NCBI RefSeq assembly: GCF_010994755.1
Contig: NZ_WHSB02000003.1
Span: 62,001-126,000, forward strand
Direction: 5' to 3'
Source of the DNA: Shinella lacus
GTDB lineage: Bacteria; Pseudomonadota; Alphaproteobacteria; Rhizobiales; Rhizobiaceae
DNA: 64,000 nt
Shown here piece by piece: positions 434-22,561 of this stretch. The position numbers and the translations under genes are program-made. Each line of letters starts with the position of its first letter. The first letter of the stretch is position 1. A model generated the notes under the pieces. It ran no database searches and was not told the DNA's origin. It worked only from the letters and a program-made list of their open reading frames with translations.

Positions 434-1312
434 TTACACCTGGCTCTGGAGCCATTGCACGAATTTGCGCAGCGCCTTTTCGTTGCCGCGCCGCTCCAAA
501 TGGACGAGATACCAGCCGCCGGGCTGCATGACGTCGGAGGCGAGCGGGGCGACGAGCGCGCCGCTGGCGATATCGCCTTCCACCAGGAAGGCCGGCACGA
601 CGACGAGCCCCTGCCCGTTGATCGCCGCCTCGATGGCGAGCAGGTTGCTGTCGAAGAGCGGCGAGGATTTTTGCGAGTGGGCGGTGGCACCAACGCTCGC
701 TGCCCAGGTCGCGGCGTCCTCGGTGGTGCCGCTGACGGCGAGGAACGAGAAATGCCGAAGGTCCTCCGGCGCCTTGATCGCCTTGGCGATGGCGGGCGAA
801 CAGACGCCGACGAGCCGCTCGCGGCGCAAAAGCGTATAGGTCAGGTTCGGCCGGTTCGGCGTGCGGGTGTAGATGAAGCCGATATCGGCGCGGTCGGGAT
901 TGAACTCCCAGTCGAGCAGGCTCGCATCGAGGCTGACGGCGACTTCGGGCGAGGCTTCCTTGAAGGTTTGCAACCGCGGGATCAGCCAGCGCACGGCGAC
1001 GGTCACATAGACCTGCACCGTCAGCGCGGCCGGCGTGTTGGTCTGGCGGATGAGGTCCGTGGTGAGCGCGATCCGGTCAAGCGCGTCTTGCACGACGGGA
1101 AAGTAGATCGCGCCCGCCTCGCTCAGTTCCACGCGGCCGGGCAGCCGAAGGAACAGCGGCGTGCCGAGATTGCGCTCCAGCGAGGCAACCTGATGGCTAA
1201 TCGCGGATTGCGTGACGCGCAACTCCTCGGCGGCCGCCTTGAAGCTCAGGAGCCGCGCCGCCGCCTCGAAGGCCCGCAGCGTCGTCAGGGGCGGCAGGAT
1301 TCGCCGGACCAT
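434..1312 (-). CDS. LysR-family transcriptional regulator (GcvA-like)
   Basis: A 292-residue protein of usual LysR length. An N-terminal winged helix-turn-helix covers roughly residues 1-65, with the recognition region AEELRVTQSAISHQ, followed by a substrate-binding domain of about 200 residues. The opening LPPLTTLRAFEAAARLLSF is typical of the GcvA-like branch. It is divergent from the importer operon starting at 1421, with a 108-bp shared control region containing a T-N11-A dyad, so it probably regulates that operon and itself. The co-inducer is unknown. Confidence 0.9.
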   Translation of the reverse strand: MVRRILPPLTTLRAFEAAARLLSFKAAAEELRVTQSAISHQVASLERNLGTPLFLRLPGRVELSEAGAIYFPVVQDALDRIALTTDLIRQTNTPAALTVQVYVTVAVRWLIPRLQTFKEASPEVAVSLDASLLDWEFNPDRADIGFIYTRTPNRPNLTYTLLRRERLVGVCSPAIAKAIKAPEDLRHFSFLAVSGTTEDAATWAASVGATAHSQKSSPLFDSNLLAIEAAINGQGLVVVPAFLVEGDIASGALVAPLASDVMQPGGWYLVHLERRGNEKALRKFVQWLQSQV

Positions 1313-1325
1313 TTTTGCAACCCAT

Positions 1326-1340
1326 ATGAATTTTACTCAT
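1326..1340. promoter_or_regulatory. Candidate LysR operator (T-N11-A dyad)
   Basis: The sequence ATGAATTTTACTCAT is a short dyad (ATGA/TCAT) that contains the T-N11-A pattern common to LysR binding sites. It lies between the divergent LysR gene and the ABC-importer operon, 14 bp beyond the regulator start. The assignment rests on position and pattern only. Confidence 0.5.
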
Positions 1341-1420
1341 GTAGACGTTAATTCTAATCGTTTGCAAGCCGGGCGCCCCGTTTTCATACTCCCGCCATAA
1401 TCCGAAAACGGGGAACCGAA

Positions 1421-2944
1421 ATGAAACGAGATCTTCTGAGAATCACGGCGCTCGCCGTGGCCATGGCCGCCTGCGCGCTTTCGACGGCCGCCTTCGCCCA
1501 GCAAAGCTGCGTGCGCGTGCTCGGCTACGAATCCGATGGCGAAAAGCAGACGATGGACCCGGCAGCGCTGATCGGCACCGACAGTGTTTACCACATCCGC
1601 GCGGTCTACGAGCCGCTTGTCGACCGCAGCAACACGATGCAGCCGGTGCCGGTGCTTGCCGAATCCTGGGAAGCCAATGCCGACGCGACGGAATGGACCT
1701 TTCATCTGCGCAAGGGCGTGAAGTTCCACGACGGCTCGGATTTCGACGCCAAGGACGTCGTCTACTCCTATCGCCGCCTGCTCGACCCCGCGATCTCGCC
1801 GGGCGGTTTTTCCACCCTCGCCTTCCTCGATGCAGACGGCATCACCGCCGTCGACGACCACACGGTGCGCTTCAAGGTGAAGCAGCCCGTCGTCGAGCTA
1901 CCGATGTTGATCGCCACCAAATATGCGCTGATGGTGCCCGAAGGGGCCAAAGCGGAGGATTTGCGCGTCAAGGGCAACGGCACCGGCCCGTTCGTGCAGG
2001 AGACCTTCACCATCAACGGCGCGGTGCGTGTGATGGCACGCAACCCGGCCTATTGGCGCGCCGGCCTGCCGAAAGCCGATTGCCTGGAGATCACCACCAG
2101 CCTGGAGCCGACCTCCCGTCTTTCCGCGCTCTTGTCCGGCACGGTCGACCTGTCGCTGACGGTCGATCCGGCGAGCCTCATCACGCTGAAGGACAATCCC
2201 GCCGTGGAGCTTGCCGCCACGCCCGGGGCGACTTCGCTCTATCTCGCGGTGTGGACGGATACGCCGCCCTTCGACGACGTCAGGGTGCGCCAGGCGATGA
2301 AGCTGGTGATGGATCGCCAGAAGATCGTCGATACCGTGCTGCTCGGTTATGGCGAGGTCGGCGGCGATACGCCGATCCCGCTCTCCTCGCCGCTCGGCCT
2401 CGGCACACCGGCCCAGACGGCCGATATCGAGAAGGCCACGGCGCTGCTCGCCGAGGCCGGTCACGCGGATGGCATCGACTTCGATCTCTACACGTCGGAT
2501 TCCTATCCCGGCATGATGCTGCTTGCCCAGGTCTATGCCCAGATGGCGGCACCCGCCGGTATCCGCGTCAATGTCATCACCTCGCCGGCCGAAGGCTATT
2601 GGGACACGATCTGGCTGAAGAAGCCGGCCGTCATTTCCTACACCAGCGCCCGCCCGCCGGCCGAAGCCCTGACGCTGTCGCTGAACAGCAAGTCCGAATG
2701 GAACGAGACGCACTGGAAACGTGACGATTTCGATGCGCTGGTCGTCAAGGCCGGGCAGACGGCAGACGAGACGCAGCGCAACGTGCTCTACCGCGATGCC
2801 CAGCGCATCGTCGCCGATGAAGGCGGCATGATCCTGCCGGTTTTCACCTCCGTCGTCGCAGGCCTGCGCAAGGGCTGCACCGGCTACCAGCCGAATGTCG
2901 ACGTGAACCGCATCGACTATGCGAACCTGAGCTGCGGCGAGTAA
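1421..2944 (+). CDS. ABC transporter substrate-binding protein, peptide/nickel/opine family
   Basis: A 507-residue periplasmic binding protein of the SBP_bac_5 (DppA/OppA) family. A signal peptide is visible: basic KRD start, hydrophobic core and a cleavage-like AFAQQ around residue 26. The motif [21 protein letters not shown] and the following [16 protein letters not shown] are family hallmarks. It is the first gene of a same-strand operon with a cupin enzyme, two permeases and a fused ATPase. The ligand cannot be deduced from the family; the embedded DMSP-lyase-like enzyme suggests a small organic solute, but that is inference. Confidence 0.9.
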
Positions 2945-3015
2945 CCGCCCATTTTACCCAAGCCCAAGACAACCGCATCCACGGGGCAATCCGCCCCGTG
3001 GAAGAGGATAGCTGC

Positions 3016-3681
3016 ATGACCACTTCCGCCCTGACCACCTTCCTCATCTGTTTCGCCGATGCGCTTGAGCAGGACGCGCGGCCCGTCTCGCGGTCGCATG
3101 CCGCCCGGCTCCGCCGCCTTGCCGAGCGCCTGCCGCCCATTCGCGACGTGGTGCCGGCCCGCGTGCCGATCCAGGCGGCCTGCGAGACCGAACTCGCAGC
3201 GACCGAAACGCCGCTTGCCCGGGCGCTTGCCGCCCTCCTGCCGGCCGTCCACATTACCCGCAGCACCAGCTATCTCGCCAACCCGCCCAGCAGCGATTTC
3301 GGCGCGAACTACGGTTACGGCGTCATCTGCGGCCCGCAGGGTGGCCCGCCGACGCTGATTGAGGATCCCGATATCGCCTTCGGGCTGATGTTCCTGGGGC
3401 CGAAGACGCATTATCCGCTGCATCACCACCCCGCCGACGAGCTCTACTATACCGTCACCGCCCCCTCTTTCTGGCGGGCGGGTACGGCGGACTGGACCCG
3501 GCGCGGGATCGATGAAATCATCCACCACCCGCCGTGGCTGCCCCATGCGACGCTTGCGGCCGAGCGGCCCCTGGTGCTGCTCTACATCTGGGAGGGCGAC
3601 CTCGAGACCGATGCCGCCTTCATTCCCGACACCGTGACGGCGGACGCCGCCCTCATTTCCGTGGGATTGGATGCGACATGA
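3016..3681 (+). CDS. DddQ-type DMSP-lyase-like cupin enzyme
   Basis: A 221-residue single-cupin protein. Residues 133-145 read YPLHHHPADELYY, giving Y133, H138, E142 and Y144, and H177 follows 39 residues after H138. This spacing reproduces the metal and catalytic set recalled for Ruegeria DddQ (Tyr120, His125, Glu129, Tyr131, His163), in which the tyrosine removes a proton from dimethylsulfoniopropionate to release dimethyl sulfide and acrylate. Its stop overlaps the next permease start (ATGA), so it is translationally coupled to an importer. The ATG at 3016 is preferred to the GTG at 2998, which only adds six residues. The cupin-DLL superfamily also holds non-lyases, so activity on DMSP is unproven. 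Confidence 0.7.
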   Translation: MTTSALTTFLICFADALEQDARPVSRSHAARLRRLAERLPPIRDVVPARVPIQAACETELAATETPLARALAALLPAVHITRSTSYLANPPSSDFGANYGYGVICGPQGGPPTLIEDPDIAFGLMFLGPKTHYPLHHHPADELYYTVTAPSFWRAGTADWTRRGIDEIIHHPPWLPHATLAAERPLVLLYIWEGDLETDAAFIPDTVTADAALISVGLDAT

Positions 3682-4631
3682 GCGTTTTTCGCCTGCTTGC
3701 CAGCAGAATCCTGTTCTCCGCGCTGACCCTGCTTCTCGTCTCGGTCCTGATCTTCCTGATCCTGGAGGCGCTTCCCGGCGACGTTGCCACCCGCATCCTT
3801 GGCCGTGACGCGACCGCAAGGGCGCTGGAGGTGCTGCGCAGCCAGCTCCACCTCGATCAGCCGGCGCTGGTGCGTTATTTCCACTGGCTCGGGGATTTCC
3901 TGCGCGGCGATCTCGGCGTGTCGATCGCCACCGGCCGTCCGATCGCCGACGTGCTCGGCCCCCGCATTGTCAACACGCTGCTGCTCTCGCTCTTCGCCTT
4001 CGTGATCTATCTCGTGCTGGCATTGGTTCCGGCGATCATCCAGGCGACGAACCGCGGCAAGGCCGTCGACAACGTCATCTCGGTCATCACGCTCATCCTG
4101 CTCTCGCTGCCGGACTTTTTGCTGGCGACGATGTTGCTCTTCCTGTTTGCCGTCGCCGTGCCGATCCTGCCGGCGCTGGCGACGATCTCGGAGGCCAGCA
4201 CCTGGCAGGAGACGCTGCGCGCCATGGTGCTGCCTGCCGTCACGCTCGCCATCATGATGGCGGTCTATGCCATCCGCGTGCTGCGCGACAGCCTGATCGA
4301 GGTGTTGCGCTCGGACTATGTGCGCCTGGCGGAATTGAAGGGCCTGCGCCCCCGCGCCGTGCTCTTCCGCCATGCCCTGCCGAACGCCATCGTGCCGGCG
4401 CTCAACGTCACGGCGCTGAACCTCGGCTTTCTCATCGGCGGTGTCGTCATCGTCGAGCGGGTGTTTTCCTATCCGGGCTTCGGCACGCTGCTGATCGATG
4501 CGCTGCAACTGCGCGATATTCCGCTGATCAAGGCGACCGTGATGATCAGCGCCGCCGTCTATGTCGCTGCCAATCTCGTGGCGGACGTTCTCGCCATCCT
4601 GCTGCAACCGCGCCTGAGGGCAAGCCGATGA
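3678..4631 (+). CDS. ABC transporter permease, DppB/OppB type
   Basis: A 317-residue inner-membrane permease of the BPD_transp_1 family. It starts with a single N-terminal membrane helix, continues with a periplasmic stretch, and has five further hydrophobic segments. The EAA-loop signature for contact with the ATPase is visible around EVLRSDYVRLAELKGLRPRAVLFRHALPNA. The start overlaps the cupin stop by four bases and its own stop overlaps the next permease by four, showing tight translational coupling. It forms the membrane channel with the product of 4628-5515. Confidence 0.92.
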   Translation: MSVFRLLASRILFSALTLLLVSVLIFLILEALPGDVATRILGRDATARALEVLRSQLHLDQPALVRYFHWLGDFLRGDLGVSIATGRPIADVLGPRIVNTLLLSLFAFVIYLVLALVPAIIQATNRGKAVDNVISVITLILLSLPDFLLATMLLFLFAVAVPILPALATISEASTWQETLRAMVLPAVTLAIMMAVYAIRVLRDSLIEVLRSDYVRLAELKGLRPRAVLFRHALPNAIVPALNVTALNLGFLIGGVVIVERVFSYPGFGTLLIDALQLRDIPLIKATVMISAAVYVAANLVADVLAILLQPRLRASR

Positions 4632-5515
4632 GCACGATCACCTCTTCCCCCGCCAAGCGCTTTGCCGGATTCGATGCCGCGCGCTGGCGCGCCACGCCCG
4701 GTCCCTTCAAGGTCGGCGCGATCATCCTTCTCGCCCACGCGCTCTTCGCCATCATCGGTGTCTTCTGGACGCCCTACGGCTTTGCCGAAATGGGCGCAGG
4801 CCTGCCGCTCTCCGGCGCCTCCTGGCAACACCCGATGGGCCTCGACCAGATCGGCCGCGACGTTTTCAGCCGCTTCATGCATGGCGCGCATATCGTGCTG
4901 CTGCTCGCCTTTGCCGGCACCATTCTCGGCATGGTCGCAGGCACCGCGCTCGGTCTTCTCTCCGGCTATATCGGCGGCTGGTTCGACGAAATCACCCAGC
5001 GCATCGTCGAGGCGATGATCAGCATTCCCTTCCTCGCGCTCGCCCTGGTCATGATCATCGCCGCAGGCCCGGCGCTTGCCGGCGAGCCAGTTCTCATCGT
5101 CTTCGTCGTCGGCCTCGTCTATGCGCCACGCATCGCCCGCATCGCGCGCGCTGCCGCCATGGAGATCGCGACGCGCGAATATGTCGCCGTGGCGGAGCTG
5201 CGCGGCGAAGGCACCTGGTCCATCGTCTGGCGCGAAATCCTGCCGAATGCCGCCAATGTGCTGCTGGTCGAGTTCTCGCTGCGCCTCAGCTATGCGCCCA
5301 TCCTCATCGGCGCGCTCGGCTTCCTCGGTTTCGGCATTCGCCCGCCGACGCCGGAATGGGGCCTGATGATCAGCGAGAACCGCAACCTGCTGATCGCCTC
5401 GCCCGTGACGGTGTTCGGCCCGGGCCTCGGCCTCGCCTCCCTCGTCATCGGCTTCAACCTGTTCACCGATGGCCTGTCGCGTATGCTCGGCCAGCGGGCC
5501 GTCGCGGGAGCGTAA
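4628..5515 (+). CDS. ABC transporter permease, DppC/OppC type
   Basis: A 295-residue permease of the OppC branch: a short cytoplasmic N-terminus, then six predicted membrane segments. The characteristic MGLDQIGRDVFSRFMHGAHI segment follows the first helix, and the EAA loop contains YVAVAELRGEGTWSIVWREILPNA. It overlaps the upstream permease by four bases (ATGA), and the ATPase gene starts one base after its stop. It is the second half of the heterodimeric channel of this importer. Confidence 0.92.
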   Translation: MSTITSSPAKRFAGFDAARWRATPGPFKVGAIILLAHALFAIIGVFWTPYGFAEMGAGLPLSGASWQHPMGLDQIGRDVFSRFMHGAHIVLLLAFAGTILGMVAGTALGLLSGYIGGWFDEITQRIVEAMISIPFLALALVMIIAAGPALAGEPVLIVFVVGLVYAPRIARIARAAAMEIATREYVAVAELRGEGTWSIVWREILPNAANVLLVEFSLRLSYAPILIGALGFLGFGIRPPTPEWGLMISENRNLLIASPVTVFGPGLGLASLVIGFNLFTDGLSRMLGQRAVAGA

Positions 5516-5516
5516 A

Positions 5517-7541
5517 ATGCAAAAACTCATCGAAGTCCGCAATCTCAACATCGCCTATGGCAGCCCCGCCGGCTGGACCAATGTCGTGCAGGGCGTCTCC
5601 TTCGAGATCGCCCGCGGCGAGGCCTTCGGGCTCGTCGGGGAATCCGGCTGCGGCAAGTCCACCGTCGCCTATCGCCTGCTTGGCTACGGCACCGTCAACA
5701 GCCTGGTGCAGACCGGCGAGGTGCTGTTCGACGGCACCGACCTGCTGAAACTCGACGCGAAATCGCTCAGACGAATGCGCGGCAACCGCATCGCGCTGGT
5801 GCCGCAGAACCCGACGACCTCGCTCAGCCCCGGCATGCGGGTGGGCTCGCAGATCCGCGAGATGATCGCCACCCACAAGGCCTTGCCGCCCGGCATGAGC
5901 ATGCAGGCGCGCATCGCCGAGCTTTTTGCGCTGGTCGGCCTGCCGGATGTCGGCCATCGCTATCCGCACGAGCTTTCCGGCGGCCAGCAGCAGCGGGTGA
6001 CGATTGCCATGGCGGTCGCCTGCAATCCCGACCTGCTGGTGCTGGACGAGCCGACGACCGGCCTCGATGTCACCACGCAGCGCCAGATCATCCAGCTTCT
6101 CGGCGATCTCAGAAGCCGCATCGGCATGGCGATGCTCTACGTGACGCACGACCTCGCGCTGCTCGCCCAGATCGCGGACCGGGTGGGCGTCATGTATGCC
6201 GGCCAGCTCGTCGAGGTCGCGCCCTGCGATCAATTGCTGGCGGCACCGGCGCATCCCTATTCGCGCGGCCTCATCGCCTCGATCCCGACCGTCGCCGGCA
6301 CGGAACGGCAGGCGCGCGGCCTGCGCGGCGTGCTGCGCCGCGACCAGATGTCCACCGGCTGCAAATTCGAGCCGCGCTGCGATTTTGCGAGCGCCGCCTG
6401 TCGCAGCACGCCGCAGGTGCTGGAGCCAGTGGCGGAGACCCGCACTGTCGCCTGCATGAAATGGCGGGAGTCGGCGGTGCCGGAGACACCGGCCGTCAAG
6501 CCGCGGCTCGACGCCAAGGCCACGGCCAAGCCGGAGCGCCTGCTCTCGATCGCCGACCTCGATCTTACCTACCGAAAACCGGGCCTTTTCGACAAACTCC
6601 TCGGCCGCACCAGCCCATCCGTGGTGCGTGACATCGATCTCGAACTGCGGGCCGGCGAGGTGGTGGCGCTCGTGGGCGAATCCGGCAGCGGAAAATCCAC
6701 TATTGCCCGCGCCATCAGCGGCCGCCTGCCGCCGCGTGCGGGCCTGATCAGCCTCGATGGCGGCCTGCTCGATCCGGCGCTGAAAAGCCGCTCGGTCGAG
6801 CAGTTGCGGCAGATCCAGTACATCTTCCAGAACCCCGACGTCTCGCTCAATCCCCGCCGCCGCATCCGGGCGATCCTGGAGCGCCCGCTCGACCATTTCG
6901 GCATCAAGGCCGACGTGAAGACGCTCGAAGGCGTGCTCGAAAATGTCGGCCTGCATGCCGGTTATCTCGATCGGTTCCCAGAGCAGCTTTCCGGCGGCGA
7001 GCGGCAGCGCATCGCGATTGCGCGCGCGCTGCTGGTCAATCCCAAACTGCTGATCTGCGACGAGATCCTGTCGGCGCTCGATGTCTCGGTGCAGGCGCGC
7101 ATCGTCGAACTGCTGCGCTCCCTCAAGGAGAAACACGCCGTTGCCATGCTGTTCATCTCGCACGACCTCGCCGTCGTGCAGCAACTTGCCGACCGGGTTG
7201 CGGTGCTCTATCGCGGCGAGTTGATGCAGCTGGCCGAGACCGAAACCCTGCTCGCGGCACCGCTGCATCCCTATACCGAGATGCTGCTGGAAGCGGCACC
7301 CGGCCTCAGCAAGGACCATTATGTCTCCCGCCCGCCGGCCATGCCGGCCTCGAAGCCGGTGCCGGGCATCGGCTGCCCGCTCGCCGGCCGCTGTCCCCGG
7401 CAGGTCGGCAGCGTCTGCGCCGAGACGCGGCCGCCGGTGCAGGCGACCGGCAGCGGGTTCATCCGCTGCCATGTGCCGGTCGAAAAACTGGCGACCCGCG
7501 CGGCACCGCCGGTGGAAAAACGGCCGGCCGCCGTGGTCTAG
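5517..7541 (+). CDS. Fused double ATP-binding protein of the peptide/opine-type ABC importer (DppD-DppF fusion)
   Basis: A 674-residue protein carrying two complete ABC ATPases. The first has Walker [10 protein letters not shown] near residue 40, signature LSGGQQQR and Walker [11 protein letters not shown]. The second has GESGSGKST near residue 385, LSGGERQR and [12 protein letters not shown]. Each half ends with the oligopeptide-type cysteine-rich tail (a CKFEPRC-like and a CPLAGRCP-like stretch). In Escherichia coli these are two proteins; fused forms are common in rhizobia. The ATG at 5517 is chosen because it follows the permease stop by one base. The gene ends with a 4-bp tail-to-tail overlap with the pseudouridine synthase. 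Confidence 0.92.
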
Positions 7542-9353: not shown

Positions 9354-11804
9354 CTACGCCTTGACCCGCAGGCTTTTCGGGTCATAGGCCGGCGAAAGCC
9401 AGGCCGTGACCGCGAAGCGCTCGCCGGCCAACTCGACCTCGAAGCGGCCGCTGGTCAAAAAGTCCTTGTCGACGCCGGACGGATGTTCGATCAGGCCAAG
9501 CGCCACGGCGCGGCCGAGCGTGTGGCCATAGGCGGCCGAGCGCACTTCGCCGACCGGTTTGCCATCCCGCAGCACCAGCTCGCCACCCCACAGCATGGGC
9601 GATGGATCGTCGACCGTGAACTGCACGATGCGTCGCGTCGGGGTGCCATTGGCCTTGGCTTCCACAAGCGCCTTCCGGCCGATAAAGCCGCTCGGCTTGT
9701 CGAGCGAGACCGCGAAAGCAAGACCCGCCTCGTAAGGGTTGATATCCGGCGTCAATTCCCGGCTCCAGGCGCGAAAACCCTTTTCCAGCCGCAGTGCTTC
9801 CAGCGCGTAATAACCGCAATCCATAAGGCCGAAGTCACGACCCGCCTCCTGCAAGGCCTCGTAGACGCCGACGGCGAATTCCGTCGGCACGATCAGCTCC
9901 CAGCCGAGTTCCCCGACATAGGTCATCCGGTTGGCATAGGCTGTGGCATAGCCGATATCGATCTCGCGCACGGTCGCGAAGGGAAAGGCCTCGTTCGAGA
10001 GGTCCGCGGAGGTGAGGCGTCCGAGAATGTCGCGCGATCGCGGCCCCATCAGTGCCAGCACGGCATAGGCGGAGGTGACATCGGTCAGCGTGACATGGGC
10101 GTCGGCGGGAATGTTCTTGCGGATCCAGTCCGCATCATGCACCGCCTGCGCCGAGCCGGTGATGAGGAGAAAGCGGTCTGCCGCAAGGCGCAACACCGTC
10201 AGGTCGCTTTCATAGCCACCGCGCGCGTTCAAGAGGCCCGTATAGATCGACCGACCGATGGCGACGTCGATCTCGGCGGCGCAGATGCGGTTCAGCGCCG
10301 CGGCGGCATCGCGCCCCTGCACGAGGAGTTTTGCAAAGGAGGTCTGGTCGAAGAGGCCGGCGGCCTCGCGCGTCGCGGCCATCTCGCGCTTCACGACATC
10401 GTGCCAGTTCTGCCGGCCGAAGGCATAGTCCGTCACCGGCGTCTCGCCTTCGCCGGCAAACCAGTTGGCGCGTTCCCAGCCCATTTTCGAGCCGAAGCAG
10501 GCACCCTTTGCGGCAAGCCGGTCGTAGAGCGGCGAGCGGCGGAAGGGCCGCGCGGTGTCGAGCTCCCGGTTCGGCCAGGGCATGGCATAGTGCAGGCCGA
10601 GCGTTTCCTTGACGCGGTCGTGCAGCCAGCGCGGATTGTTGTTGAAGCCGGCAAAACGGCGGATATCGACCGGCCAGAGGTCCATGGTCGGCGCGCCGTT
10701 GACGATCCACTCCGCCAGTGCTCGGCCCGCGCCGCCGGCACTCGCGATGCCCATCGAGTTGAAGCCGGCGCCGACATAAAAGTTCTTCAGCTCCGGCGCC
10801 TCGCCGAGGATGAAGTTGTTGTCGGGGGTAAAGCTTTCGGGGCCGTTGTAGAACTTCTTCACCTCGGAGGTCGCGAGCTGCGGCACGCGTTCCAGCGCGC
10901 TCTGCATGAGGATCTCGAACTGGTCCCAATCATCCGGCAAGAGGGCGAATTCGAAATCGTCCGGAATGCCCGCCATGCCCCAGGGTTTGGCCTCCGGCTC
11001 GAAGCCGCCCATCACGAGGCCGCCGACCTCCTCCTTGAAATAGATGTAACCGTCCGGATCGCGCATGACCGGCAGGTCAGGATGCACGCCCTCGATCTTG
11101 CCGGTGACGATATACATGTGCTCGGCCGAATGCAGCGGCACCGAGACGCCGCACATCTGGCCGACCTTGCGCGCCCACTGGCCGGCGCAGTTGACGACGA
11201 TCTCGGCGGCGATCGCGCCGCGGTCGGTTTCCACGCCGGTGACGGCGCCGTTCCTGGTCGTGATGCTGGTCACCCGCACGCGTTCGAAGATGCGAGCGCC
11301 GCGGTTGCGCGCGCCCTTGGCGAGCGATTGCGTGAGGTCGGTGGGGTTCGCCTTGCCGTCGCCCGGCAGCCAGACGGCGCCCGCGAGATCGTCGATCGCC
11401 ATGACCGGCCAGAGGTCCTGCGCCTCCTTCGGCGAAATCACTTCGATGTCGACGCCCTGAGCGCGGGCCGAGGCGGCGGTGCGTTTCAGCACGGTCATGC
11501 GGTCGGCGGTGCGGGCCACGGAAACGGAGCCGCAATTCTTCCAGCCGGTGGCGAGGCCGGTTTCGGCCTCCAGCTCGCTATAGAGCTGCGTCGAATATTT
11601 GATGAGGCTCGTCATGTTGGCATGGCTGCGCAACTGGCCGACGAGACCGGCCGCGTGCCAGGTGGTGCCGCCGCTGAGCTGTCCCTGTTCGAGCAGCACG
11701 ACATCGCGCCAGCCGAGCTTGCTCAAGTGATAGGCGACCGAACAGCCGATGATGCCGCCGCCGATGATGACGACCTGTGCCTGTGTTGGAAAATCCTGTG
11801 CCAT
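9354..11804 (-). CDS. FAD-dependent dimethylglycine/sarcosine dehydrogenase-like protein with GcvT domain
   Basis: An 816-residue two-part oxidoreductase. The N-terminal DAO domain has the Rossmann motif VVIIGGGIIGCSVAYHLSK and TTWHAAG, where the histidine matches the covalent FAD attachment of dimethylglycine and sarcosine dehydrogenases. A middle FAO_M segment leads to a C-terminal GcvT aminomethyltransferase-like domain (from about residue 430) that passes the one-carbon unit to tetrahydrofolate. The start is set at 11804, behind GGGAGG; the longer form adds eleven unlikely residues. The neighbouring GbdR-like and DeoR-type regulators fit N-methylated amine catabolism. Whether the substrate is dimethylglycine, sarcosine or another N-methyl amine is open. 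Confidence 0.88.
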   Translation of the reverse strand: MAQDFPTQAQVVIIGGGIIGCSVAYHLSKLGWRDVVLLEQGQLSGGTTWHAAGLVGQLRSHANMTSLIKYSTQLYSELEAETGLATGWKNCGSVSVARTADRMTVLKRTAASARAQGVDIEVISPKEAQDLWPVMAIDDLAGAVWLPGDGKANPTDLTQSLAKGARNRGARIFERVRVTSITTRNGAVTGVETDRGAIAAEIVVNCAGQWARKVGQMCGVSVPLHSAEHMYIVTGKIEGVHPDLPVMRDPDGYIYFKEEVGGLVMGGFEPEAKPWGMAGIPDDFEFALLPDDWDQFEILMQSALERVPQLATSEVKKFYNGPESFTPDNNFILGEAPELKNFYVGAGFNSMGIASAGGAGRALAEWIVNGAPTMDLWPVDIRRFAGFNNNPRWLHDRVKETLGLHYAMPWPNRELDTARPFRRSPLYDRLAAKGACFGSKMGWERANWFAGEGETPVTDYAFGRQNWHDVVKREMAATREAAGLFDQTSFAKLLVQGRDAAAALNRICAAEIDVAIGRSIYTGLLNARGGYESDLTVLRLAADRFLLITGSAQAVHDADWIRKNIPADAHVTLTDVTSAYAVLALMGPRSRDILGRLTSADLSNEAFPFATVREIDIGYATAYANRMTYVGELGWELIVPTEFAVGVYEALQEAGRDFGLMDCGYYALEALRLEKGFRAWSRELTPDINPYEAGLAFAVSLDKPSGFIGRKALVEAKANGTPTRRIVQFTVDDPSPMLWGGELVLRDGKPVGEVRSAAYGHTLGRAVALGLIEHPSGVDKDFLTSGRFEVELAGERFAVTAWLSPAYDPKSLRVKA

Positions 11805-11834
11805 GTGACGACCTCCCGGAACCATGGAAGGCCG

Positions 11835-11887
11835 CACTGTAACAAGGTGCCGGCAGATAACAAGACAAAAAGTTACAAAAGATTACA
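11835..11887 (-). promoter_or_regulatory. TGTAA repeat cluster upstream of the flavoprotein gene
   Basis: Read on the minus strand, TGTAA occurs at the start of TGTAATCTTT and again in TGTAACTTTT (tandem units at 11877-11887 and 11868-11877, about one helical turn apart). A third TGTAAC-related copy (as GTTACAG) lies near 11838. The cluster sits in the 88-bp gap between the DeoR-type gene and the oxidoreductase. DeoR-family repressors often bind such repeats, so this is a candidate operator. Confidence 0.45.
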
Positions 11888-14022: not shown

Positions 14023-16035
14023 CTATCGCCAGGCCTGGGTGCGGGCCAGCAGGCCGCGCGCGATCAGCGCGTGGATCAGCTTGGCGGCGACATTCGTGTA
14101 GAAGATCATCATGCCCATGGCCGCTGCCGGGGCGATATCGCCGGCATCGTCCATGTTGAGCACGGCGACGGAAGCGAGCTTCGTATCCGTGGCGTAGAGG
14201 AAGACAACCGCCGAGACCGTCGTCATCGCATTGACAAAGAGATAGATCGCGATGTTGAGGATCGCCGGCAGGCAGACCGGCACGGTGACCCGGAAGAACA
14301 GCCGGTGGAACGGCTGCTTGAGGGAGGCCGCCACGGATTCGAATTCCGGGTCCATCTGTTTCAGCGCTGTCAGCGCCGTCAGGTGCGCGACGGTGTAGAA
14401 GTGCGTCACCGTCGAGACGACGAGGATCGTCATCGTGCCGTAGATGGCGTTGAGCGGATTGGCCGGATTGTTGAAGAAGAAGATATAGGCAAGGCCCAGC
14501 ACCATGCCCGGCACGGCCATCGGCATCATCGCGAGAAAATGGAAGATGCCGCGGCCGAGGCGGAAACCATCCGCCTTTTCCACCATATAGGCGCCGGCGA
14601 AGACGACGAGCGAGCCGAACAGCGCCGTCAGGAGGGCGAGTTGGATCGAATTGCCATAGGCCGCCCAGCCGCCGCCATCCATCAGGTCGAAGGCGAAATT
14701 CTTTGTCGTCAGCGTCAGGTCGTAGGGCCAGAATTTCACCAGCGCCGCGATCTGGCACATGGCGATCATGCCGAGGATGAACAGGCTGACGAGGCAGGCG
14801 AAGGCAAAGCAGATCGCGTCCAGCCGGGCGTTGGGCTTCGGCGAATAGGGCACGGCGCGTGCGGAGAGCAACGCCACCTGGCGCTTCTGCATGCGCCGGT
14901 CGACGGCGAAGGCGAGGATGGCCGGCACCAGAAGGATGACGGAGACGACCGCGCCCATTTCGAAATTCTGCTGGCCGATCACCTGCTTGTAGATGTCGAC
15001 GGCGAGCATGCCATATTGCCCTCCGATTACCTTGGGCAGGCCGAAATCGGTGATGACCAGCGTGAAGACGACGAAGGCGGCCGAGACGAGGCCGTAGCGC
15101 GCGCCCGGCACCGTGACGGTGGTGAATGTGCGCCATTTGCTGGCCTTCAGCGAGGCCGCCGCTTCGTAATGCCGTGCATCGGCGACGGAGAGCGCGGTCA
15201 GGATGATCAGGAAGGCGTGCGGCAGGGTGAAGAAGACCGAGCCGATGACGATGCCGATCGGACCATAGATGGAGTAGCCCATCAGCCAGTCCTTGAAGAC
15301 ACCCTGGTTGCCGAAGAGGTAGACGAGAGCGATGCCGGGCAGCAGCGATGGCACGAGGATCGGGATCGTCAGGATGCCGCGAAACAGGCCCTTCAGCGGC
15401 ATGCAGCTTCGCGTCAGCCCATAGGCGAGCGCGAAGGCGATGGAGATCGTCACCACCGTGCTGATCGCCGCCATCAGCACCGAATTGTAGATGGAACGGG
15501 CAAGGGCCGGCGTCGAAAAATAGGTCTTGAAGTTTTCCAGGCCGAGGCTGCTTGCCGGTCGCAGAACGACGCGCCGGAACGTGCCGGAATCGTATTCCCG
15601 CCATTCCGTGCCCTTTTCCAGCGTCGAGCCCGCGAGGAAAGCCGTGTCGGCGCTCGTGCCGCGGATGCGGTATTGGACGGGGCTGCGGAAGCTGAAGTCC
15701 GGGAAGAATTTCGTGGCGGCAAGCCGGCCGTCGGAACTGCTGTCGAGCTCCTCATCCGTGATGGCGCCGAGCTGTTGGTTGAGCGCCTCCGCGGTGACGA
15801 CCGGACCCCAGTTGGCGCCCGTCTCGTCGCTCACCTGGAATTCGAAGGCGGCGAGGTCGAAGCGGTAGGTCGATAGCGATTTCGACAGCATGACGGCGAG
15901 CGGCGCGCCAAGTGCGATGATCAGGTAGAGTCCGATGACGGCCATGAAGCCGAGCTTGATGCGGTCGTCGCGCGAGGATTCCTGCCGGACGCGCTTGCCG
16001 GGCGGGGCGAAGTCGAGTGCAAGCGTCATCGTCAT
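14023..16035 (-). CDS. 2-aminoethylphosphonate ABC transporter permease (double-domain, PhnU-like)
   Basis: A 670-residue permease containing two BPD_transp_1 domains in one chain, each with about six membrane segments, like iron FbpB-type and the second AEP-type (PhnU2) permeases. Both EAA loops are visible (HYEAAASLKASKWRTFTTVTVPGA and FESVAASLKQPFHRLFFRVTVPV). A soluble insert of about 130 residues follows the first helix. It overlaps the ATPase gene by four bases and is the last gene of the phnS-phnT-phnU-like operon next to the AEP catabolic genes. Confidence 0.85.
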   Translation of the reverse strand: MTMTLALDFAPPGKRVRQESSRDDRIKLGFMAVIGLYLIIALGAPLAVMLSKSLSTYRFDLAAFEFQVSDETGANWGPVVTAEALNQQLGAITDEELDSSSDGRLAATKFFPDFSFRSPVQYRIRGTSADTAFLAGSTLEKGTEWREYDSGTFRRVVLRPASSLGLENFKTYFSTPALARSIYNSVLMAAISTVVTISIAFALAYGLTRSCMPLKGLFRGILTIPILVPSLLPGIALVYLFGNQGVFKDWLMGYSIYGPIGIVIGSVFFTLPHAFLIILTALSVADARHYEAAASLKASKWRTFTTVTVPGARYGLVSAAFVVFTLVITDFGLPKVIGGQYGMLAVDIYKQVIGQQNFEMGAVVSVILLVPAILAFAVDRRMQKRQVALLSARAVPYSPKPNARLDAICFAFACLVSLFILGMIAMCQIAALVKFWPYDLTLTTKNFAFDLMDGGGWAAYGNSIQLALLTALFGSLVVFAGAYMVEKADGFRLGRGIFHFLAMMPMAVPGMVLGLAYIFFFNNPANPLNAIYGTMTILVVSTVTHFYTVAHLTALTALKQMDPEFESVAASLKQPFHRLFFRVTVPVCLPAILNIAIYLFVNAMTTVSAVVFLYATDTKLASVAVLNMDDAGDIAPAAAMGMMIFYTNVAAKLIHALIARGLLARTQAWR

Positions 16036-17195
16036 GCCCCCCTCGGAAAGAGCAGCAGGCGGTCTTGCGGGATCTCCACCTGGATGACGCCGCCCGTCTC
16101 GATCTGCAGCCGGCGCACCGCGTTGACGGAGAAATCGGCGACGAGCGTGCGCTCGCCGAGCCGCGGGGCCGTCAGCCGCGTGCGCCAGAACATGCCGAGG
16201 AATTCCATCTCGCGCACTTCGGCATCGATGAGGTTCTGCGGCGTCGTCGGCCGGTCGATGGCGTTGACGGCATGCGCATAGGCGCCATGCGGAATGATAT
16301 CGACCGGGCGCACGACGGAGGTCGCGGTGTCGCCCGTCGCGAAATCCTCCGTCAGACAGCGGAAGGCCGAATGGCCGATCTCGACCTGGCCGTCAGGCAG
16401 CACTTTCGCGGGAAACTGGTTGGTCTCGCCGATGAAGTCCGCGACGAACAGGGTTTTCGGATGGCGGTAGATTTCGGTCGGCGAGCCGACCTGCTCGATG
16501 ACGCCGTGATTCATCACCACGATGCGATCCGCCATGGCGAGCGCTTCTTCCTGGTCGTGCGTCACCATGATCGTCGTGACGCCGAGCTTGCGTTGCAGCG
16601 ACTTGATCTCGTGGCGCAGGTGCACGCGCACCTTTGCATCAAGCGCCGATAGCGGCTCGTCGAGCAAAAGCAGGCCGGGGGAAATGGCGATGGCGCGGGC
16701 AAGCGCGATGCGCTGCTGCTGGCCGCCGGAAAGCTGGGCGGGATATTTTTTGCCATGCGCCGAAAGGCCGACCGTTTCCAGGAGTTCCGTGACGCGCGCG
16801 GTAATCTCCGCCCGGGAGCGGCCGGCGTTTTCCAGGCCGAAGGCGATGTTCTGTTCGATCGTCAGGTTGGGGAAGAGCGCATAGGACTGGAAGACGATGC
16901 CGTAATCGCGGCTGGAGGCCGGCAGGCTTGAAATGTTGCGGCCGCCCTGGAGAATTTTTCCGTGGGACTGGAGATCGAGGCCGGCGATGGCCCGGAGCAG
17001 GGTCGTCTTGCCGCAGCCGGAAGGGCCGAGGAAACAGACGAATTCGCCCTTGGCGATACTGAGGGAAATGTCGCGCAGCGCTACGAAATCGCCATAACTC
17101 TTCCAGAGATCGGTGATTTCGAGATAGGAAGCCGCCTCTCCGGGCGCGCGGTGAATGCTCGTGGGTGTCGGTTCGATCGACATGGCATGTCTCAT
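16032..17195 (-). CDS. 2-aminoethylphosphonate ABC transporter ATP-binding protein (PhnT-like)
   Basis: A 387-residue ATPase: Walker A GPSGCGKTT near residue 55, signature LSGGQQQR, Walker B LLLLDEPLSALD, H-loop VTHDQEEAL, and a C-terminal TOBE-like domain of about 120 residues. The start at 17195 is preceded by GGAG at normal spacing. It lies 80 bp downstream of the binding-protein gene and overlaps the permease. It energises uptake of AEP or a related phosphonate. Confidence 0.87.
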   Translation of the reverse strand: MRHAMSIEPTPTSIHRAPGEAASYLEITDLWKSYGDFVALRDISLSIAKGEFVCFLGPSGCGKTTLLRAIAGLDLQSHGKILQGGRNISSLPASSRDYGIVFQSYALFPNLTIEQNIAFGLENAGRSRAEITARVTELLETVGLSAHGKKYPAQLSGGQQQRIALARAIAISPGLLLLDEPLSALDAKVRVHLRHEIKSLQRKLGVTTIMVTHDQEEALAMADRIVVMNHGVIEQVGSPTEIYRHPKTLFVADFIGETNQFPAKVLPDGQVEIGHSAFRCLTEDFATGDTATSVVRPVDIIPHGAYAHAVNAIDRPTTPQNLIDAEVREMEFLGMFWRTRLTAPRLGERTLVADFSVNAVRRLQIETGGVIQVEIPQDRLLLFPRGA

Positions 17196-17275
17196 CTGCA
17201 AGCTCCGCTGGCTGTCAGGCACGTTTCGAGAATGCGAAGGGCGGAGCGATTGGCGCCCCGCCCGGCCGATCGATC

Positions 17276-18298
17276 TCAGCTCTTCGGTTCCGACTTGGCG
17301 TCGTAGCGCTTCTGCCATTCCTTCAGGATGGTGGCGCGGTTGTTCGCGGCCCATTCGAAGTCGTTTTCGATCATCTTGGAGGCGATGTCGGACGGCAGGT
17401 GTTCGACTGCCTTGGCGACGCCCGGATAGGCGACCACGGCGTAACCGACATTGTACATCTCGTTGGCTTCCTTGGTGACGGACCAGTCGACCAGGGTCTT
17501 TGCGGCCTCGAGGTTTGCCGTGCCGGCGATGATCGCCGTCGCCTCGGCTTCCCAGCCCGAGCCTTCGGAGGGGAAGATGATGTCGATCGGCGCGCCGGCG
17601 CTTTTCGCCTTGGCGCCGGGGAACTCGAAGGACACGCCGATCACCGCTTCGCCGGCGCCCGCCATCTTGCAGGGTTTCGAGCCGGAATGGGTATAGGCCG
17701 AGATGTTTTCGTGCAGCTTGTCCATGAAGGACCAGGCCTTCTCCTCGCCCCACATCTGCACCCAGCCCGAGACATCGAGGAAGCCGGTGCCGGAGGAGGC
17801 CGGGTTCGGCATGACGATATGGCCCTTGTATTCCGGTTTCGTCAGGTCTTCCCAGCTCGTCGGCGCCTTGAGGCCGAGCTTTTCGCCCTCCACGGTGTTG
17901 TAGCAGAGGGCCGCGACATAGGCGTCCATACCGACCCAGCTCGGCGGGTTGTCCTTGTCGACGAATTTCTTGTCGAGTGCCTCGACGCCCTTCGGCGCAT
18001 AGCCTTCCAGCATGCCCTCGGTCTTGAGGAGCAGCAGCGACGTCGCGGCCAGCCCCCAGACGACGTCGGCCTGCGGATTGTCCTTTTCGGCGAGCAGCTT
18101 TGCCGTCATGACGCCGGTGGAATCGCGCACCCAGTTGATCGTGATGTCGGGGTGGGCCTTCTCGAAGGTCGCCTTGTAGCGATCGAGATCGACGGCCTCG
18201 ACGGCGGTGTAGACGGTGAGTTCACTCTGGGCGAAGGCAATGGTCGGAAAGACGGCGGACATGGCGCCGGCAAGCAGAAAAAGCATGCGTCTGTTCAT
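17276..18298 (-). CDS. 2-aminoethylphosphonate periplasmic binding protein (PhnS-like)
   Basis: A 340-residue binding protein of the iron/AEP type (SBP_bac_6-like). A signal peptide ends near AFAQS at residue 24. Motifs such as VYTAVEAVDLDRYKATFEKAHP and ADVVWGLAATSLLLL fit the AEP-binding PhnS2 group. GAGGAG stands ahead of the ATG. A 28-bp element shared with the phnW promoter lies about 130 bp upstream, so the transport and catabolic operons are probably co-regulated. Confidence 0.85.
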   Translation of the reverse strand: MNRRMLFLLAGAMSAVFPTIAFAQSELTVYTAVEAVDLDRYKATFEKAHPDITINWVRDSTGVMTAKLLAEKDNPQADVVWGLAATSLLLLKTEGMLEGYAPKGVEALDKKFVDKDNPPSWVGMDAYVAALCYNTVEGEKLGLKAPTSWEDLTKPEYKGHIVMPNPASSGTGFLDVSGWVQMWGEEKAWSFMDKLHENISAYTHSGSKPCKMAGAGEAVIGVSFEFPGAKAKSAGAPIDIIFPSEGSGWEAEATAIIAGTANLEAAKTLVDWSVTKEANEMYNVGYAVVAYPGVAKAVEHLPSDIASKMIENDFEWAANNRATILKEWQKRYDAKSEPKS

Positions 18299-18430
18299 GA
18301 TTGAAAATCTCCTCTGAAGGCCTGGAAAAACCGGGGAAGCGCGGCGGGTGATCTAGCTGTCGCCCTTTGATGATCGGCTTCGAGAGGCATTCTGCGCAGG
18401 GGTTTTCGGTAAGTAAAATTTATTATTCTT

Positions 18431-18458
18431 ATCGTTCGGAAGGTAGAATCTATAGGTT
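18431..18458 (-). promoter_or_regulatory. Shared AEP regulatory element, copy 1 (upstream of phnS-like gene)
   Basis: On the plus strand it starts with ATCGTTC and ends with TATAGGTT, separated by 13 bases. It matches 19 of 28 positions of the element at 22562-22589 with identical length and orientation relative to the minus-strand genes. It is a candidate binding site for the LysR regulator at 22700-23575. Confidence 0.65.
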
Positions 18459-18490
18459 ACGGGCCGCGAAAACGGTCCTTTTCGGCAACG

Positions 18491-18520
18491 AAAAAAGGGA
18501 GCCGCGCGAAGGCAGCTCCC
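18491..18520 (-). terminator. Rho-independent terminator of the phnW-phnA-phnY operon
   Basis: GGGAGC (18497-18502) pairs with GCTCCC (18515-18520); with one wobble pair the stem reaches nine base pairs around a TTCG-containing loop. On the minus strand it is followed directly by six T residues (18496-18491). It lies 33 bp after the phnY stop and separates the catabolic operon from the transport operon. Confidence 0.85.
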
Positions 18521-18552
18521 AGAAAGGGTGATCTCGCAGGGGTTTACCTAGA

Positions 18553-20007
18553 TCACCAGGGCAGGGAAAAGGTCTTGACGTTGGTAAAGCTCTTCATCGC
18601 CTCGATGACGCCTTCCTTGTAGCCGTTTCCGGAATCCTTGATGCCGCCGAAGGGGGACATCTCGATGCGGTAGCCAGGCACTTCCCAGATGTTCACCGTG
18701 CCGACCTTCAGCCCCGCAATGTATTTCTGCATGCGGCGGAAATCGTTGGTGCAGACGCCGGAGGAGAGGCCGAAGGCGGTCGAGTTGGAAAGCGCGATCA
18801 GCGCATCGTCGTCATCCGGCGCGCGGACGATCGGGATGATCGGCGCGAAGGTTTCCTCCATCACCAGCTCGCTTGCATGCGAGACGCGGTCGATGACGAT
18901 CGGCGGCAGCAGGGCGCCCTGCCGGCCCGGATTGTACAGGATCTCCGCCCCCTCCTCCGCCGCCTTGTGCACGCGGCGTTCGAATATCTCCGCGGCCTTG
19001 GCATGCACGACCGTGCCGAGATCCGTCTTGCGGTCCATCGGATCGCCGAACCGGAGCTTCTTCGCCCGCTCCAGCACCAGCGGCACGAAGCGATCGGCGA
19101 CGCGCTCCTGGCAGAGGATGCGTTTGACGGCCGTACAGCGCTGGCCGGAATTCTTCGTCGCACCCGCCACCGCGAGGTCGGCGGCTCTGGCGAGATCGTC
19201 GTCCGATAGGTCGTTGAGGATGATCAGCGGGTCATTGCCGCCGAGTTCGAGGATCTGGCGCTTGTAATGCGCATGCGAGGCGATCAGCTTTCCCACCGGC
19301 ACGCTGCCGGTGAAGGTGATCAGGTCGAAATTCGGGTTGGTAATCATCTCCATGCCGATATCGCCCGGCCAACCGGTGACGACGGAGAGCATTTCCGGCG
19401 GCAGGCCGGCTTCATAGAGAATGTCGGCCAGTACCAGCGCCGTCATCGGCGTCAGTTCCGTCGGCTTCAGCACCACGCAATTGTTGGTGGCGATGGCCGG
19501 CGCCACCTTGTGCGCCACCATGTTGAGCGGATGGTTGAAGGGCGTGATTGCCGAAATGGCGGTCAGCGGCTCGCGGGTGGTGAAGATCTTGCGCGCCTTG
19601 CCGTGCGGGGTGAGGTCGCAGGAGAAGATTTCGCCGTCGTCATGGATGCACATCTGCCCGGAAAGCGTGAAGACATCGAAGGCGCGGCCCACTTCATAGA
19701 GCGAGTCCTGCTTGGAAATGCCGAGCTCCAGCGTGATGAGATCGGACACTTCCTCCTTGCGGGCGACCAGCAATTCGGCCGCCTTGAGCAGGATGCGCTG
19801 CCGCTCGTAGCGCGTCAGCTTCGGCTGGTAGGTGGCGGCAATCTCGAAGGCCTTGCGGGCATGTTCGGCATTGCCCGCCGGAACGGTGCCGATGACGGCA
19901 TCGTTCCAGGGATAGTGCACCTCGACCACGCCTTCGGTATCGACCTTCTTGCCGGCGATCCGCATCGGTTCGTGGCGGATCGCGAATGTCGTTTCGACCT
20001 TGGTCAT
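18553..20007 (-). CDS. phnY: Phosphonoacetaldehyde dehydrogenase PhnY
   Basis: A 484-residue aldehyde dehydrogenase that oxidises phosphonoacetaldehyde to phosphonoacetate with NAD. Numbering from the second ATG (20007) gives C291 in NSGQRC (nucleophile), E254 in LELGGND, H159 in TPFNHP, and R108 and R290. These are the positions I recall for the Sinorhizobium meliloti PhnY active site, which supports this start; GGGAG lies at good spacing. The ATG just upstream (20010) would add one residue. It is last in the phnW-phnA-phnY operon, 10 bp after phnA, and followed by a strong terminator. Confidence 0.95.
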
Positions 20008-20017
20008 CATTCGCTCC

Positions 20018-21280
20018 CTATTGTGCCGGCTGCGCGGCTGCGACGAGCGCGTAGTAGAAGGCATCGAAATTGCGCAGCGTGCCGGCGGAAAGAAGCTCCG
20101 GCAGCGTGCGGTTGGCGATGAAGGGCACTTCCTGCTCGGTGAGGCCGCCATGGGAGCGCAGCGGTTCGTTGAGTGCTGCAAGGTCATGCCGGTGCTCGCT
20201 GGTGCCGAGCGTCTTGTTTTCCGAGGAGACGAGCACGATGTCGCCGATGCGATCGTCCGGCAGTTCGAAGCGCACGCAGGCTTCCGGGCGCGACAGCACC
20301 ACGTCGATGCCATCGATCGCCTTCAGCCGCTCGATTATCTCCTCCTTGTCCGTGCCTTCCGGCAGATAGGCGGTGGCGAAGGAACCGAGCGCGCCATGGT
20401 GCACGACATAGGGGTCGGTGATCGGCAGGATGACGCGGGCGGCGTCCTTGCCGAGCCATTGGTCGAGCAGGTCCTGCACATAGATCACGTCCGGCGAGCC
20501 ATCTGCCTTGTGCTTCGGCTTCATGCCATGGTCGGCCGTGACGATGATTGCGGCACCCAGCGCGTCGAGCTCGGTCAGGTACTTGTCGAACATCTCGTAG
20601 AAGGCATTCGCCTGCGGCACGCCGGGGGCATATTTGTGCTGCACATAGTCCGTCGTCGTCAGGTACATGACGTCCGGGCGGAACTCCTTGAGCAGCTTGA
20701 CGCCAGCTGCGAAGACGAACTCCGAGAGTTCCGCGGAATAGACTTCCGGCACCGGCCGGCCAAGCCAGGCCGAAGCATTGTCGATGCCGTGTTCCGCCTT
20801 GGTCGTCGTGTCGGACTTTTCCGAGGAAAAGCAGATCGCCCTGCCCTCATCAAACTTCAGGCCGTGGCCGAGCAGCGCGCGCAGCTTGTCCTTCGCCGTC
20901 ACCACCGCGACCTTGGCGCCGGCGTCGTAGAAGGCCTTGAAGACGGTCGGCGCGCGGAGGAAGCGCGGATCGTTCATCATCACTTCCTTGCCGGTCGCGG
21001 GCTCATAGAGATAGTTGCCGCAGATGCCGTGGATTGACGGCGGGCGGCCGGTGGCGATCGACAGGTTGTTCGGGTTGGTGAAGCTCGGGATGACGCTGAG
21101 CGCGGTGCGCTCGGTTCCCGTCTTGCGGATGCGGGCGAGCGTCGGCATCAGGCCCGCCTTGATGGCCTCGTCGAGATAGGCCGGCTCGCAGCCGTCGAGG
21201 CAGATGGCGATGGCCGGGACATTCGGCCAGGGATAGGTGCGCCGGTTGGCGACGACGGTAAGCTTGGACATGTGGTTCAT
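20018..21280 (-). CDS. phnA: Phosphonoacetate hydrolase PhnA
   Basis: A 420-residue member of the alkaline phosphatase superfamily that splits the C-P bond of phosphonoacetate to acetate and phosphate. Numbered from the ATG at 21280, the dizinc and nucleophile residues fall at D29, T68, D211, H215, D250, H251 and H377, matching those recalled for the S. meliloti enzyme. This decides against the ATG at 21292, which also lacks a usable ribosome site; AGGA lies about 10 bases before 21280. It sits between phnW and phnY in the AEP pathway. Confidence 0.95.
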
Positions 21281-21298
21281 CGGAAATTCCATCCTTAT

Positions 21299-22501: not shown

Positions 22502-22561
22502 GGTCCGTCCTCGCATTGGCGTCTCTGGAGCGACAATGCGGCGGGCAGACATATATGTAAA

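Follow-up and report, generated by a model that had tools for sequence, protein, structure and literature searches.

The window analysed here is a stretch of 64,000 nucleotides from Shinella lacus (contig NZ_WHSB02000003.1 of assembly GCF_010994755.1, positions 62,001 to 126,000). It carries a gene for a cupin of the dimethylsulfoniopropionate (DMSP)-lyase-like (DLL) superfamily inside an operon for an oligopeptide-type ABC importer, beside a divergently transcribed gene of a LysR-type regulator (Table 1). The parts are ordinary and their arrangement is uncommon and well conserved; the cupin forms a new clade within a known superfamily, and there is a concrete lead to the class of its substrate. 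Open reading frames and Pfam matches bore out the positions and families given in a first-pass annotation for the 221-residue cupin and the importer operon around it.

Table 1. Features of the cupin-importer locus, in positions of the window.
Feature	Position	Strand	Basis
LysR-type regulator, divergent from the operon	434..1312	-	PF00126 and PF03466
Conserved LysR box, palindrome ATATGAATTTTACTCATGT and the block after it	1324..1365	+	Alignment of 14 loci
Putative promoter TTGCAA-17 nt-CATACT	1362..1390	+	By eye; both elements invariant in 14/14 aligned gaps between regulator and solute-binding protein genes
Solute-binding protein, SBP_bac_5	1421..2944	+	PF00496, E 6.6e-85
Predicted RNA hairpin between solute-binding protein and cupin genes	2979..3001	+	9 bp stem, 2979-2987/2993-3001
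Cupin-DLL protein, putative metal-dependent lyase, 221 aa	3016..3681	+	PF16867, E 5e-49
Inner-membrane permease, DppB-like	3678..4631	+	PF00528, PF19300
Inner-membrane permease, DppC-like	4628..5515	+	PF00528
Fused two-module ATPase, DppD-DppF-like	5517..7541	+	ABC_tran twice and oligo_HPY

The Pfam composition of the importer (SBP_bac_5, two binding-protein-dependent permeases, and two ABC modules with oligo_HPY) and the order of solute-binding protein (SBP), two permeases and ATPase are those of Opp/Dpp-type systems. The operon differs from these by the inserted and coupled enzyme gene, and in that an NCBIfam search placed neither the SBP nor the permeases at or above the cut-off of any substrate-specific model. 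Importers of the SBP_bac_5 family carry mostly peptides, opines and metal chelates, and the closest solved proteins in a PDB search with the window SBP were binders of dipeptides, oligopeptides, heme, nickel and opines. The best NCBIfam model for the regulator was GcvA, under its cut-off.

Conservation and expression signals of the operon

Fifteen orthologous loci were compared (the window, L031, L033, L034, L035 and L036-L045). Regulator, SBP, cupin and first permease were present in all 15, and the ATPase in all 14 whose contig reaches that far; the gene caller missed the second permease in L033 and L040, of which the L033 copy was recovered by tblastn. The pairing of cupin and importer, for which the first-pass annotation had advised a survey, is thus conserved, and the block of LysR gene and SBP-cupin-permease-permease-ATPase operon extends through Rhizobiaceae and kin, including pSymA of Sinorhizobium meliloti. 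A cupin orthologue was found in only three of 297 Rhizobiaceae genomes (the window's own, and at 78% and 61% identity), the same three that hold the SBP at no less than 84%. Orthologues were 60-88% identical to the window cupin, ten loci lying in genome contigs, and 30 plasmid records reached at least 60% (25 of S. meliloti, four of Ensifer adhaerens and one of S. sojae). A literature search that included SMa0295-0297 and SMa0299-0307 returned no study of the operon.

The stop codon of the cupin gene overlaps the start of the DppB-type permease gene (ATGA, 3678-3681), as had been pointed out from the window alone, and this overlap was kept in all 14 orthologous loci read (L039 not in the set); judged by it, cupin and first permease are translationally coupled. 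In the gap between regulator and SBP genes, the palindrome of the LysR box departed from the 21-mer at no more than one position in any of the 14 aligned loci. The hairpin of the SBP-cupin gap was likewise conserved, with pairing in 94.4% of the 126 cells from 14 loci and four cells changed on both sides. Of 500 shuffles, 2 reached the covariation and 58 the count of doubly changed pairs, and the RNA fold had a z of -3.09. Standing just before the ribosome site of the cupin, the hairpin may reduce expression of the genes behind it compared with that of the SBP gene. In L040 and L041 the gap is widened to 267 and 170 nt, from ca. 70 elsewhere, by inserted palindrome-rich DNA, and the hairpin before the cupin is kept.

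Several further observations concern the surroundings of the operon and of related importers. In S. meliloti 1021 the likeness of the fused ATPase (L031:16506-18320) to its relatives ends after residue 447 and the frame continues to 604 aa, perhaps through a frame change or a sequence error. Importers 41-51% identical to that of the window adjoin enolase-superfamily enzymes or a GcvT-like demethylase-type gene (L139, L144-L146), and the cupin was missing from the nine regions compared around importers of this identity. Downstream in the window, a dimethylglycine dehydrogenase (DMGDH)-like gene (9354-11837) was considered as part of the module and set aside: it lies ca. 1.8 kb away on the opposite strand beyond intervening genes, and among the loci compared L100 and L114 alone shared its cluster (c44) with the window. 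Farther on, ABC transporter, aldehyde dehydrogenase, phosphodiesterase-type and class-V aminotransferase genes (14023-22552) stand in an order which we take to be that expected for the use of 2-aminoethylphosphonate.

The cupin among DLL proteins

The match of the cupin to the Pfam family DMSP_lyase scored 166.6 bits against a cut-off of 27, which puts the assignment far beyond chance; no NCBIfam model matched it. By sequence, its solved relatives were 5cu1 (7e-14), DddQ 4la2 (5e-7) and DddQII 4b29 (4e-5). The residues listed as essential for DddQ in an excerpt of PMC4437653 (Tyr120, His123, His125, Glu129, Tyr131, His163) aligned with Y133, H136, H138, E142, Y144 and H177 of the window cupin, so that the spacing given in the first-pass annotation for five of these residues was correct. 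Across 44 aligned DLL proteins, Y133, H138, E142 and H177 were invariant, and H136, Y144, W153 and W192 were kept in at least 90%. By this alignment, the cupin has the metal site of three His and one Glu (H136, H138, E142, H177) together with the Tyr base, Y144.

An AlphaFold2 model built from an input of 41 sequences (pLDDT 95.2, pTM 0.92) predicts a DddQ-like fold: the top six PDB matches in Foldseek were all DddQ chains (E 2.4e-15 to 7.3e-13; query TM 0.62-0.67, target TM 0.69-0.77), followed by DddY and then DddK. The window cupin thus has the Pfam family, fold, metal ligands, Tyr base and the Trp at the cupin end in common with the DddQ structures (4la2, 5cu1, 4b29). It differs from them by an identity of 18-23% in the structural alignments, by its separate clade and its coupling to an importer, and by an operon with no DMSP or acrylate context.

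The phylogenetic position was obtained from a quick IQ-TREE analysis of 96 DLL proteins, in which the three solved DddQ were entered as partial sequences. The window cupin clade (14 rows) had an SH-aLRT of 100 and grouped with six proteins of other families (94, not starred), and the three solved DddQ sat with three others in a set of six rows (99). Joining the window clade with the three solved DddQ was rejected by the approximately unbiased test (p 0.0026), the grouping tested having been chosen after the tree was seen. Membership of the DddQ clade was rejected on this tree, and DMSP lyase function was kept as a rival explanation. The operon holds no acrylate gene, nor was anything found there that points to acrylate or dimethyl sulfide (DMS). 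The designation of the cupin as a DddQ-type DMSP lyase was accordingly not supported as it stood.

Matches to any DLL protein are far more widespread than the orthologues, occurring in 97 of the 297 Rhizobiaceae genomes and in 53 of 385 genomes of the class. Chromosomal Rhizobiaceae paralogues stand by cobQ, acyl-CoA dehydrogenase and 3-hydroxyisobutyrate dehydrogenase genes in a conserved synteny of unlike genes, which gave no hint of a substrate, and the DUF4159/LigD neighbours of g150 homologues were uninformative.

A second lyase and the ergothioneine route

In five of the 15 loci (S. meliloti, S. sojae, a Sinorhizobium metagenome-assembled genome, Phyllobacterium brassicacearum and Aquamicrobium defluvii) the regulator is accompanied by an SMa0306-like gene annotated as histidine ammonia-lyase (HAL), here called c16, which ends 68-92 bp from the end of the LysR gene. 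Its product matched PF00221 (E 3e-131), and its best PDB match was ergothionase (6s7j) at 303 bits, the next one reaching 176; for the S. sojae protein the two scores were 293 and 183. The ASG motif of the 4-methylideneimidazol-5-one (MIO) cofactor was not found in seven c16 rows from five species. The site reads SVGQADMT instead of the GASGD of ammonia-lyases, and both the HAL of the window's own genome (L116) and Paracoccus HutH have GSVGASGD there. Ergothionase, an ergothioneine trimethylamine-lyase, likewise has no ASG at this site and has the GVGWNKD block in common with c16; in an excerpt of PMC13405746 it is described as working without MIO and yielding trimethylamine and thiourocanic acid, and an ergothioneine sulfonate pathway is named in the title of reference 43 of that paper. 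By sequence, then, c16 is a MIO-less lyase of the ergothionase kind, which suggests that SMa0306-like genes do not encode histidine ammonia-lyases. The comparison concerns the c16 of relatives, the gene having no place in the window; it also brought out differences, in that c16 has no HutU or thiohydantoin genes nearby and looks exported, an in-frame N-terminus resembling a signal peptide being seen by eye in all five sequences.

A LysR box was found ca. 95-100 bp before the c16 start in all four loci with upstream DNA. It agrees with the importer box at 32-34 of 46 positions, the next best place of each locus at 23-24. A 40-bp pattern of the box, allowing three mismatches or fewer, had two sites in each of the genomes G138 and G212 and one in that of the window (G000), and none when reversed. 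In the three genomes searched these sites fell only at importer and c16 promoters; the pattern was derived from its own sites, so that only their uniqueness is informative, and weaker boxes may escape it. On this evidence one LysR box appears to control both importer and c16 in some relatives. Matches to c16 of 85% or more occurred only in G138 and G212 among the 297 Rhizobiaceae genomes, in both cases adjoining the cupin operon. Every plasmid record that held c16 at 80% or above (26 in all) also carried the cupin, and the reverse held for 26 of 30 (25 of the 26 being from S. meliloti). More distant homologues (44-56%) in Burkholderia, Paraburkholderia, two Paracoccus and Polaromonas also had no ASG at the MIO site, and four of these five stood near a HutU-like gene.

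In the genome of the window c16 was not found, the best match being 32% identical. This genome has instead, on another contig, a separate and apparently complete operon for the utilisation of ergothioneine (L268:6182-13150; G000:C33, ca. 192-199 kb), comprising a MIO-less lyase, ErtD, ErtE, thiohydantoin desulfurase and thiourocanate hydratase, the latter four over their NCBIfam cut-offs (NF058529, NF058530, NF058538, NF058540). The lyase reads GSMGCADIG at the MIO site, has ergothionase as its best PDB match, and is a distant relative of c16. The Ert operon differs from the window module by its separate locus, by having no DLL cupin and by desulfuration through thiohydantoin desulfurase. Since this route has no need of the cupin, ergothioneine itself is disfavoured as the cupin substrate here; its presence in the same cell speaks for the setting and against that one compound. 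Desulfuration of thiourocanate by the cupin was also considered and is not favoured, the thiohydantoin desulfurase serving the Ert route in this genome; the presence of PF06032 in one of three genomes, and in neither of the two with c16, argues against it as well.

Elsewhere in the genome, a HAL-like gene with GSVGYLTH at the MIO site (L269:7124-11416; G000:C24, ca. 297-301 kb) adjoins ProU/choline-type ATPase and permease genes, and perhaps encodes another betaine lyase with its own importer.

Proposed role and its alternatives

We tentatively propose, with the chances still somewhat against it, that this LysR-controlled module imports a betaine-type, perhaps histidine-betaine-derived, compound, which the cupin cleaves as a metal-dependent Tyr-base lyase. 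The SBP would capture a small solute for import by the permease pair with the fused ATPase, and its cleavage in the cytoplasm would fall to the cupin, whose translation is coupled to that of the first permease. Following the mechanism of DddK and DddQ given in an excerpt of PMC10686828, taken here as the model, we infer that a divalent metal on H136, H138, E142 and H177 would hold the substrate carboxylate and Y144 would take the alpha proton, upon which the leaving group departs. Where c16 is present, cleavage outside the cell, uptake and a second cleavage inside may follow one another, an order suggested by the importer standing between a first lyase that looks exported and a second enzyme that stays in the cytoplasm; species with no c16 would take up the compound directly.

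The substrate is probably not DMSP but another onium compound of the betaine type, most likely one derived from a histidine betaine of the ergothioneine or hercynine kind, a choice favoured because the LysR box in relatives also appears to control the MIO-less lyase that looks exported. The first-pass annotation offered an importer and lyase for DMSP, for an onium or thio compound related to it, or else a cupin-DLL reaction so far unrecognised; the DMSP part of this is not supported as stated, and the wider wording fits better. Several points weigh against our proposal. The importer belongs to a peptide-type family, c16 is missing from ten of the 15 loci, the window's included, and neither the cupin nor this importer occurs at any of the five loci with more distant c16 homologues. 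The cupin was missing from 13 regions around related importers or lyases. Ergothioneine itself seems to be catered for without the cupin in the window's genome, and the box pattern carries the circularity noted above.

The loci with no c16, along with the importer family and the solved relatives of the SBP, would also suit a rather unlikely alternative, in which the cupin is a metal-dependent lyase, hydratase or isomerase acting on a plant or soil compound neither onium nor histidine-derived, such as a modified peptide or amino acid. This is opposed by the LysR box common to the operon and the ergothionase-like lyase, and by the relatives of the importer at ca. 42%, which in two partly annotated loci have a GcvT-like demethylase-type gene and a GMC oxidoreductase nearby. 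That the cupin is a true lyase of DMSP, or of dimethylsulfoxonium propionate (DMSOP), with the importer taking up DMSP and the cupin releasing DMS and acrylate, appears quite improbable: the full DddQ active site and the best fold matches favour it, and a side activity is likely, in that DMSOP is also a substrate of the cupin DMSP lyases as a group according to the excerpt of PMC10686828, but the clade is separate from the solved DddQ, the operon has no acrylate gene, and the partner lyase is of the ergothionase kind. A role as a non-catalytic ligand sensor or importer scaffold, to which the constant coupling to the permease would lend itself, is very improbable given the retention of every metal ligand and of the Tyr base throughout the family.

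The neighbourhoods of other DLL genes bear on a broader connection, in which DLL cupins other than DMSP lyases serve quaternary-ammonium or sulfonium catabolism and the window cupin acts on a betaine unrelated to histidine. Context probes taken from the first 38 DLL regions (an old yellow enzyme (OYE)-type flavoprotein, DMGDH-like proteins and MIO-less lyases) matched 11 of 40 further DLL regions and none of 40 control stretches picked by coordinate in the survey genomes (p 4.4e-4), the DLL regions not being all independent and several of the 11 being orthologous or having the match 6-9 kb from the cupin. Mycofactocin OYE and enoate or dienoyl-CoA reductases, and no proven N-demethylase, were the best matches of the OYE-type protein, and ABC ATPase probes differed little. 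A Phaeobacter plasmid carries a DLL gene between CoA ligase and beta-oxidation genes, close to a betaine-type ABC set, and in Fuscovulum ytuae (L153:5452-6303) the DLL gene, with Rieske oxygenase genes near it, overlaps by 8 bp the permease gene of an unrelated polyamine-type ABC importer, so that the coupling of DLL genes to importers may have arisen more than once. These contexts are a lead towards onium compounds, not proof, and for the window cupin a betaine unrelated to histidine is improbable. Little weight was given to L104, where a DLL cupin by two MIO-less aromatic-lyase-like genes had offered itself as a second independent pairing, because its genome (G382, alphaproteobacterial, 2.7 Mb; L104, L234, L240) has 27 matches to that lyase family, many of them in tandem.

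In its boldest form, which goes further than our proposal and is unlikely as a whole, the cupin-DLL proteins would be onium lyases at root and the DMSP lyases their sulfonium branch. The window clade would then be a new branch, encoded on the symbiotic plasmid in S. meliloti, that acts together with an exported MIO-less lyase when rhizobia break down histidine betaines (ergothioneine, hercynine or an oxidised form) and that cleaves either a C-N or a C-S bond in the compound taken up.

The role of DLL proteins outside the proven DMSP lyases was reportedly called an open question by Lei et al. in 2018, and proteins under the annotation dimethylsulfoniopropionate lyase are encoded by many bacteria that live far from the sea. 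The operon ties one DLL clade to a regulator, an importer and, in the laboratory model S. meliloti, a second lyase, and thereby yields a short list of candidate substrates. Such DLL genes in soils are, as a caution, not to be counted as DMS producers. Found in some root-associated bacteria, the operon points to a new role for a DLL cupin.

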